Source: Burkholderiales bacterium
Lineage (GTDB): Bacteria > Pseudomonadota > Gammaproteobacteria > Burkholderiales > Burkholderiaceae_C
DNA: 64,000 bases
NCBI GenBank assembly: GCA_028868995.1
Contig: JAGWTH010000010.1
Span: 1-64,000, forward strand
Direction of reading: 5' to 3'
Shown here: one piece after another, positions 1 through 4,587 of the stretch
Numbering within the stretch: position 1 is the first letter of the stretch
Layout of the letters: the number at the start of each line of letters is the position of its first letter
The notes under the pieces: model-generated
Seen by the model: only the letters and a program-made list of their open reading frames with translations
Told to the model about the DNA's origin: nothing
Databases searched by the model: none
Translations under genes and position numbers: made by a program

Positions 1-142
1 TCGTGTACCTCGGCTCACGGTTTACGCTCCACGCTTCCTCCCCACGCTCGGTCGCCCTCGCGCAGTTGCGCTTCACTTGCCTCGCTGTGGCCAGCTCGGC
101 CGGGGACTTGCACCCCGAAGATCGCGCCCATGCTGGGCGCAC
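1..142 (-). mobile_element. Group II intron, 5' end (partial)
   Basis: Read on the minus strand from 142, the sequence begins GTGCGCCCAGCATGGGCGC and continues with GGGGTGCAAGTCCCC, GAGGCAAGTGAAGCGCAACTG and AACCGTGAGCCG. This order resembles the 5' end and domain I of bacterial group II introns, which start with GUGYG and fold an early GCGCCCA/TGGGCGC stem. The rest of the intron, including any reverse transcriptase/maturase gene, would lie left of the window. No protein is encoded in this part. The boundary lies 7 nt from the stem of a terminator hairpin, the kind of site used by class C introns. The identification rests on remembered consensus features, not a covariance search. Confidence 0.68.
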
Positions 143-148
143 AAGCGA

Positions 149-175
149 AGCGCCGCATCCGCGGCGCTTTTTTTT
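149..175 (+). terminator. Rho-independent terminator hairpin
   Basis: AGCGCCGC, a four-base loop, then GCGGCGCT running into T8 forms a strong terminator for plus-strand transcription. The gene it once served would lie left of the window, beyond the intron. It ends only 16 bases before the start codon of the response regulator. Confidence 0.85.
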
Positions 176-191
176 CGCCGAGAATCCTCCC

Positions 192-1241
192 ATGGCGAAC
201 GTGCTGCTGATCGAGGACGACGAGGCCCAGAGATTCGTGGCCCGTTTCGCATTGAAGAAGGCCGGCCACGAGGTCCGCGAGGCCGCCGACGGCCCGGCGG
301 GCCTGGACGCGGCGCGCCAGCAGCGCCCCGACGTCATTGTGTGCGACGTGATGATGCCCGGCATGACCGGCTACGACGTCCTCTCGCAGCTGCGTGCCGA
401 CCCGGGCCTGGCCACGGTGCCGGTCGTCCTGCTGACCGCCATGTCCGAGCGCCAGCACATGCGCCAGGGCATGACCGCCGGCGCCGACGACTACCTGACC
501 AAGCCCTACCGCCCCGACGAGCTGTGCGCCGCCGTCGACGCCGTGATGGCCCGCCGGCAGGTGCAGGAGGAGGCTTTCCGCAGCTCGGTGTCGGGGCTGG
601 TGGAAAGCGCGCTGGAGCGGCAGAAGGAAGTGCTGGGCCGCCAGTACGAGAACCAGCTGCAGCGCGAGATCAACAAGCGCTGGACCCAGGCCAACCGCGC
701 CACCGACCTGCACTATGCCCGTGCCTTCCTGCTGCTGGCCGACCTGATCGGGCCGCAGGCGGACGACGGTGAGGCGAACCTTGCCGAGCGCGTGAAGCAG
801 GCGCAGCAGGCGGCTCGCGACACCCTGTACCTGTTCGGCGCCACCCAGGTGCTGCCCTACGGGCCCGAGATCATGGCGGTGTTCGAGGCCGACCGCGACA
901 CCCTCACCACGCCGGCCGAGATCCGCGTGCTGCGCGCGGCCCTGGCCCTGGCCCGCGGCGTGCCGCGCGAACGGCCCGTCTCGGTGGCCCTGCATGCCGG
1001 CGCGGTGGCGCTGGTGGCGGTGACCGACGGCCTGCACGGCGACCAGGGCCACGCCCTGGTGCCCGGCGAAGCCGTCAACGCCGTGGCGGCGCTGGAAGAC
1101 GCCTCGGCGGAAAACGGCTGGCGCATCGCCGCCACCGCCGCCATGGCCCAGGCCCTGGACGGCCAGGTCCGGCTGGGACGCCAGGCGCGCACCCGGCGCG
1201 GTGACGACGCCTTCGAGGTGGTGGGCATCGCCGACGCCTGA
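192..1241 (+). CDS. Response regulator with C-terminal cyclase-like domain
   Basis: This 349-residue protein has an N-terminal receiver domain (about residues 3-120) with the acidic pair E8-D9-D10, phospho-acceptor D52 in VCDVMMPG, T82 and K104 in YLTKPY. A helical linker (about 125-185) follows. The C-terminal half resembles class III nucleotide cyclases (ALHAGAVALVAV, then GEAVNAVAALED), but I do not find the usual pair of metal-binding aspartates, so it is probably non-catalytic or regulatory. The start is the ATG followed by ANVLLIEDD; the ORF extends upstream through the intron and terminator, which cannot be coding. The neighbours downstream are convergent, so it is a lone unit. A related domain sits in the Ser/Thr kinase at the right edge of the window. 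Confidence 0.85.
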   Translation: MANVLLIEDDEAQRFVARFALKKAGHEVREAADGPAGLDAARQQRPDVIVCDVMMPGMTGYDVLSQLRADPGLATVPVVLLTAMSERQHMRQGMTAGADDYLTKPYRPDELCAAVDAVMARRQVQEEAFRSSVSGLVESALERQKEVLGRQYENQLQREINKRWTQANRATDLHYARAFLLLADLIGPQADDGEANLAERVKQAQQAARDTLYLFGATQVLPYGPEIMAVFEADRDTLTTPAEIRVLRAALALARGVPRERPVSVALHAGAVALVAVTDGLHGDQGHALVPGEAVNAVAALEDASAENGWRIAATAAMAQALDGQVRLGRQARTRRGDDAFEVVGIADA

Positions 1242-3402: not shown

Positions 3403-4587
3403 TCAGCCGCGGCCGATCAGGGCGGCGGCATGGCGCGCGATCATCCGCTCCTCGTCGGTCGGGATCACCCAGGCCGCCACGCGGCTGCCGGGGGTGCTGA
3501 TGCGGGGGCCGTTCCGGTCGTTGGCCTCGGGGTCGAGCGCCACGCCCAGCCAGGCGGCATCCTCGCACACGCGCCGGCGGATGGCCGCCGCGTGCTCGCC
3601 GATGCCGGCCGTGAAGACGATCGCGTCCAGCCCGCCCAGCGCCGCGGCGAGCGAGCCCAGTTCGCGCCCGATGCGGTAGACGAACAGGTCGATCGCGGTG
3701 CCCGCGCGCGGGTCGGCGCTGGCCTGCAGCGTCCGCATGTCGCTGGAGATGCCCGACACGCCCAGCAGGCCCGACTCGTTGTAGACCATGCTCTCGACGG
3801 CGCGCACGTCCATGCCGCGCTGGTCGATGAGATACAGCACCACGCCCGGGTCGAGCGCCCCGCAGCGGGTGCCCATGGGCAGGCCGTCGACGGCGGTGAA
3901 GCCCATGGTGGTGGCGACGCTGCGCCCGCCCCGCAGCGCGCACATGCTGGCGCCGTTGCCCAGGTGCATGACCACCGTGCGCCCGCCGGCGGCCCGCCCG
4001 TCGAAGCGCGGCAGCACCGACGCGATGTATTCGTAGGACAGGCCGTGGAAGCCATAGCGCCGCACCCCCTCGGCATGCAGCCGCGCCGGCAGCGCGAACC
4101 GCTGTGCCGCATCCGGGTTGCCGCGGTGGAAGGCCGTGTCGAAGCAGGCCACCTGGGGCAGCCCGGGCTGCCGCCGCAGCAGCAGCCGGATCGGCGCGAG
4201 GTTGTGCGGCTGGTGCAGCGGCGCCAGCGGCACGAGCTGCTCCAGCGACGCGAGGAGGTCCGCGGTCACCCGCACGGGCCGGGCGTGGTCCAGGCCGCCA
4301 TGCACCACGCGGTGCCCCATGGCGACCAGCCGGCCGCCGCCCAGGTGCTGCTGCGCATAGGGCAGGAGGTAGTCCAGGGCCGTCTCGTGGTCGAGATGCG
4401 CCCCCCCGTCCCAGGACTTCTCCTCCAGCACCCGACCGGCCGCGTCCTTCGCCACGAAGCGCGGGCTGGTGGTCAACCCCTCCACCACGCCATGCAGGGT
4501 CAGCTCCAGGCCTTCATCGCGCAGCAGGAACAGCGAGTACTTGATGCTGGAGGAGCCGGAATTGAGGACCGCGATCGCGTCGCTCAT
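3403..4587 (-). CDS. ackA: Acetate kinase
   Basis: The 394-residue length fits AckA. The N-terminal VLNSGSSSIKY is the ASKHA-family phosphate loop and adenosine signature, and GHRVVHGG, DTAFHRGNP, RRYGFHGLSYEYI and HLGNGASMCAL are the conserved acetate kinase blocks, with GIGEHAAAIRRR near the C-terminus. The enzyme interconverts acetate plus ATP and acetyl phosphate plus ADP in the cytoplasm. It lies 16 bp downstream of a phosphate acetyltransferase gene on the same strand, giving a Pta-AckA pair, probably one operon. The ATG at 4587 starts at the conserved N-terminus. Confidence 0.95.
   Translation of the reverse strand: MSDAIAVLNSGSSSIKYSLFLLRDEGLELTLHGVVEGLTTSPRFVAKDAAGRVLEEKSWDGGAHLDHETALDYLLPYAQQHLGGGRLVAMGHRVVHGGLDHARPVRVTADLLASLEQLVPLAPLHQPHNLAPIRLLLRRQPGLPQVACFDTAFHRGNPDAAQRFALPARLHAEGVRRYGFHGLSYEYIASVLPRFDGRAAGGRTVVMHLGNGASMCALRGGRSVATTMGFTAVDGLPMGTRCGALDPGVVLYLIDQRGMDVRAVESMVYNESGLLGVSGISSDMRTLQASADPRAGTAIDLFVYRIGRELGSLAAALGGLDAIVFTAGIGEHAAAIRRRVCEDAAWLGVALDPEANDRNGPRISTPGSRVAAWVIPTDEERMIARHAAALIGRG

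Follow-up and report, generated by a model that had tools for sequence, protein, structure and literature searches.

Previous work has established that class C group II introns rely on EBS1 and EBS3 alone and choose insertion sites behind terminators (PMC3522654, PMC4424553, PMC8919778). A second set of described elements, the IIC-attC introns, recognises a hairpin together with a short IBS1 and is inserted opposite to local transcription (PMC7923331). Here we analyzed a 64,000-nt stretch of bacterial DNA (the window) whose first 142 positions, read on the minus strand, almost certainly form the 5' end of a retrotransposing group IIC intron that has about 14 copies in the genome. This intron is an ordinary new copy of an already known kind of element, and our results on it overturn no known biology. 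It appears to resemble the group IIC introns B.h.I1 and the GsI-IIC RT family in its small size, its IEP with reverse transcriptase (RT) and maturase but without En, its use of EBS1 and EBS3 only, and its insertion at terminator hairpins (PMC4424553, PMC8919778, PMC3522654). Nothing fundamental separates it from them; what differs here is that two EBS1 subtypes occur in one genome and that one copy seems to have entered a hairpin from the antisense face. The likeness to IIC-attC introns lies in hairpin recognition, the short IBS1 and insertion against local transcription (PMC7923331), but the targets here are terminators and the IBS1 is TTTCAT or TTGCTT, not the TTGT consensus. The flanks of the 14 sites are terminators after ordinary genes, and inspection of these sites by eye recognised no integron cassettes or attC. 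The coordinates of all features are collected in Table 1.

Table 1. Coordinates of the window features, of the full-length intron copies and of the tRNA-splitting intron in the same genome.
Feature	Position	Strand	Remarks
Group IIC intron 5' end, 142 nt, start of domain I	window 1..142	-	identical or nearly identical to the 5' end of 13 other copies, including C70 and C13
Candidate IBS1, 5' exon TCGCTT before intron	window 143..148	-	5/6 positions pair with EBS1 AAGCAA (C13 subtype)
Hairpin AAGCGCCGC-ATCC-GCGGCGCTT, probable insertion target	window 148..169	.	uninterrupted and conserved in congeners (L045, L047)
T8 tract of terminator	window 168..175	+	terminator called on + only
Response-regulator gene, Response_reg, 349 aa	window 192..1241	+	flank outside intron; orthologues in congeners with same neighbouring terminator
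C70 complete intron, 1834 nt	L016:1449-3282	-	
C70 IEP (RT/maturase) ORF, 508 aa	L016:1534-3060	-	
C13 intron, 1837 nt	L015:1560-3396	-	contig ends 2 nt past intron 5' end
Split tRNA-Gly(CCC) exons	L029 (G000:C65:24500-30500): 1241-1279, 4006-4040		
tRNA-splitting intron	L029: 1280-4005		
Intact tRNA-Gly(CCC) within that intron	L029: 2130-2203		
IEP of that intron	L029: 2221-3849		

The draft genome comprises 81 contigs and 3.76 Mb, and the window is positions 1-64000 of its contig C19, which is 85,289 bases long. Position 1 is both the window edge and the contig edge, where the intron fragment is truncated. On the minus strand, from about 175 towards 1, the DNA reads ...AAAAAAAAGCGCCGCGGATGCGGCGCTTCGCTT up to the 143/142 boundary and GTGCGCCCAGCATGGGCGCGATCTTCGGGGTGCAAGTCCCC... 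beyond it. A search of the draft with the first 300 bases found 14 intron 5' ends; when the 3' terminus of a complete copy served as query, 13 intron 3' ends were found. At the 5' junctions unrelated flanks all switch to GTGCGCCCAGCATGGGCGCG at one base; 12 readable junctions besides that of the window, all with different flanks, place the intron start exactly at 142. The 3' junctions read CCTATCCCGAT (CCCAAT in one) and then continue into unrelated sequence, the first base of which is T in 11 of 13. The original prediction had placed a group II intron start at 142 and quoted three strings on the minus strand from there; all three are present as stated, and the boundary is borne out both by the shared junctions and by the full copies. 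Its proposed covariance-model check succeeded in part: D1D4 models match the full copies, and the 142-nt fragment by itself, truncated at its 3' end, scored a sub-threshold 26 bits with Rfam D1D4-3 (cut-off 32). Since that match is weak and no Rfam family exceeded its cut-off anywhere in the window, the identification rests on the full-length copies elsewhere in the genome.

Two such copies, complete or nearly so, are present (C70 and C13). Their ends, GTGCG...CCCGAT, correspond to the group II pattern GUGYG...AY (GUGCG...AU), and both copies contain matches to D1D4-3 (89-101 bits) and D1D4-1 (49 bits). Domain V/VI of both folds stably, with a UA bulge and a bulged A 8 nt from the 3' end; the domain V model Intron_gpII scored 37 bits on C70, just under its gathering score of 40. 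A maturase ORF and domain V/VI, for which a search had been advised, are thus found in full copies of the same genome, domain V/VI lying about 1.8 kb downstream of the intron start. The C70 IEP, encoded in domain IV, matches TIGR04416 at 416 bits and comprises RVT_1 and GIIM domains; a domain search found no HNH (En endonuclease) domain in it. Its best PDB match is the GsI-IIC RT (E 1.5e-132), and relatives with 59-83% identity are frequent in Betaproteobacteria as well as outside that group. The absence of En and this best match point to a placement in class C, and judged by its ends, DV/DVI, IEP and target, the C70 intron can be classed as a group II intron of class C on sequence grounds.

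Hairpin targeting is seen throughout the genome. A perfect hairpin of 7-12 bp lies 3-8 nt before the intron at 13/13 readable 5' junctions, with a stem of at least 7 bp at all 13 and at least 8 bp at 11, which agrees with the class C habit of targeting terminator hairpins that had been suggested for this locus. By comparison, 0.36% of window positions have a perfect stem of 8 bp or more within 9 nt, and 0.01% have one when a T-rich tail is required as well. The minimum free energy of the flanks was also tried as a test; it gave no discrimination in this GC-rich genome, and the perfect-stem test with its background rate was used instead. In the window itself 7 nt separate the GC stem GCGCCGC/GCGGCGC from the boundary, as had been claimed, and the distance is 5 nt once two A-T pairs are added to the stem. 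At most other sites the upstream gene, as assessed from ORF and GC3, runs in the same direction as the intron and stops 50-76 nt short of the junction, and this together with a T-rich tail fits the usual orientation. Furthermore, 29 loci in other species, for example Azotobacter vinelandii and Thauera, share the intron 5' end, nearly all of them behind a terminator-like hairpin. At three of these loci (L127, L128 and L138) a IIC intron begins directly behind what looks like the domain VI terminus of a second IIC intron, as though the DVI hairpin had been the site of insertion. We found no empty site for the C70 copy, the two flanks of which lie apart in congeners, and GC skew gave too weak a signal to reveal a replication-strand bias.

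The window copy is mildly unusual in lying on the strand opposite to the targeted terminator. In one congener (G011, L045) the same hairpin and T tract stand uninterrupted after a metE-like gene, and in another (G014, L047) after gdhA, both names being read from translated ORFs; in each case the gene preceding the terminator shares its strand (plus). This refines the original prediction: the hairpin beside the intron is a terminator on the plus strand only, and the intron lies on its antisense face and not past it in the direction of transcription. A terminator in the intron's own transcriptional sense, which is usual and not strictly defining, is lacking at the window copy only. Could the hairpin instead be a bidirectional terminator, with the intron behind it in ordinary sense orientation? 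The stem is palindromic and the tail on the intron side, TTCGCTT, is moderately T-rich, but that tail contains no T run, its first two T lie inside the stem, and no terminator was called on the minus strand. Moreover, the sole gene on the 5' side of the intron, the response-regulator gene, is on the plus strand and reads away from the terminator, and the congener hairpin with its T tract comes after a plus-strand gene. We consider this reading unlikely. The T8 tract and terminator call on the plus strand only, the plus-strand gene and the congener terminators together argue that the intron inserted into the opposite face of the hairpin and lies antisense. We found no report of antisense insertion at ordinary terminators in the open-access literature, in a search that fell short of Robart et al. 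2007; insertion opposite to transcription at hairpins is known for IIC-attC introns, so this type of behaviour has a precedent. The antisense copy serves as a natural experiment, on a small scale, on whether the target is defined by hairpin DNA or by transcription termination.

A mechanism for such an insertion can be proposed. Spliced intron RNA with its bound IEP would recognise a hairpin in DNA together with a short match to IBS1/IBS3, the RNA would reverse-splice into the recognised strand, and DNA synthesis on the inserted intron would need no endonuclease, its primer presumably coming from the replication fork. At the window site the intron, which we take to have been active, would have used the minus-strand face of a plus-strand terminator between the upstream gene and the response-regulator gene; the copy would lie antisense to local transcription and the upstream gene would be parted from its terminator. 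Its transcript would now cross the intron antisense before reaching that terminator. On balance we favour an account in which the RNP reads the bare hairpin and 4-5 nt of IBS1 on the exposed strand, and not the transcribed terminator, with the window copy landing antisense, the upstream gene uncoupled and its transcript running antisense through the intron, and with the two subtypes having diverged in EBS1 and in preferred sites.

The two subtypes are distinguished by EBS1, which forms the loop of a 4-bp hairpin at intron positions 169-200 and reads AAGCAA in C13 and ATGAGA in C70 and C77. AAGCAA pairs at 6/6 positions with TTGCTT, the IBS1 at most subtype-1 sites, and ATGAGA pairs at 6/6 with TTTCAT, the IBS1 at most subtype-2 sites; the association of subtype with IBS1 class was significant (Fisher P = 0.007-0.010; 12-13 sites). 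A segment near intron position 65-80 had been considered as EBS1 and was dropped, as the loop of the 169-200 hairpin fits both IBS1 classes. In the window, the intron-face tail TTCGCTT would pair with AAGCAA at 5/6 positions; the copy's own EBS1 lies past the contig end, and this pairing is predicted from its subtype. The match of EBS to IBS is imperfect, as seen at C45 (G000:C45:1-142), where a subtype-1 5' end stands beside the subtype-2 IBS1 TTTCAT. C77 has a hybrid 5' end with a subtype-2 EBS1, and it is possible that C45 and C77 are mosaic copies or assembly chimeras. The 13 readable sites, with their EBS1/IBS1 co-variation, offer a clean set of natural insertions for a betaproteobacterial IIC lineage that is widespread.

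The early end of the window copy fits the way in which the draft was assembled. Most copies seen at 5' junctions break 107-142 nt into the intron, and since they end little over 100 nt in, assembly breaks at the repeat; contig C19 has intron sequence at both of its ends, and was broken inside the intron repeat by short-read assembly. Copies of one repeat account for both ends of the window's contig. It is improbable that the window holds a dead, truncated 5' remnant only: just 142 nt precede the contig end, but a break at that distance is expected of an assembler stopping at a repeat, and 13 3' junctions stand against 14 5' junctions. A full-length body is thus the preferred reading, and the copy could be truncated with its body being unassembled. 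The contig carrying its 3' junction was not identified, as synteny linking failed. Congeners have either a metE-like gene or gdhA before the response regulator, none of the genome's 3'-junction flanks matches either neighbour, and the genome's metE-like homologue is not adjacent to any intron junction. That there is no intron here at all, the 142 nt being a conserved structured RNA or the leader of the response-regulator gene, is refuted by the full intron copies: the sRNA models that match in the first 400 nt score sub-threshold and far under their gathering scores; the 142 nt are repeated at 13 other, unrelated places, from two of which the sequence runs on into an IEP-bearing intron; and the orthologous congener loci lack them, their alignment stopping at the hairpin.

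By following the other reverse transcriptases of the genome, we found on contig C65 an HNH-bearing group II intron (L029) inserted into a tRNA-Gly(CCC) gene, which it interrupts within the 3' strand of the anticodon stem. Inside this intron, 17 nt ahead of the IEP ORF, is an intact tRNA-Gly(CCC). When the exons are joined, the split tRNA is identical at 74/74 positions to the intact tRNA in more than 30 congeners; no other intact close match was found in the same genome, the best other hit being 84%. The cargo tRNA differs from the split one (82% identity) and is identical to tRNA-Gly(CCC) in two genomes of other families. In a sample of 369 genomes of the class, two further genomes were positive: in G384 one intron (L187) and in G458 another (L188) split and carry tRNA-Gly(CCC), and a second intron in G384 (L192) splits and carries tRNA-Gly(TCC). 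The isoacceptor carried thus equals the isoacceptor targeted in 4/4 introns, and a reasonable reading is that this type of intron supplies a spare of the tRNA that it interrupts. Introns of more distant relatives of the L029 IEP carry no tRNA, and the strict junction pattern was found in the source genome only among 399 genomes of the phylum. Searches of the open-access literature found no description of tRNA-Gly-splitting, tRNA-carrying introns, and one may exist nonetheless. This family is much more interesting than the IIC copy and deserves its own study. Another group II intron in the genome (L030, G000:C75:3500-8500), in which no internal tRNA was found, matches D1D4-7 and domain V, and its open RT frame of 416 aa is shorter than those of its relatives and shares 43% identity with the L029 IEP.
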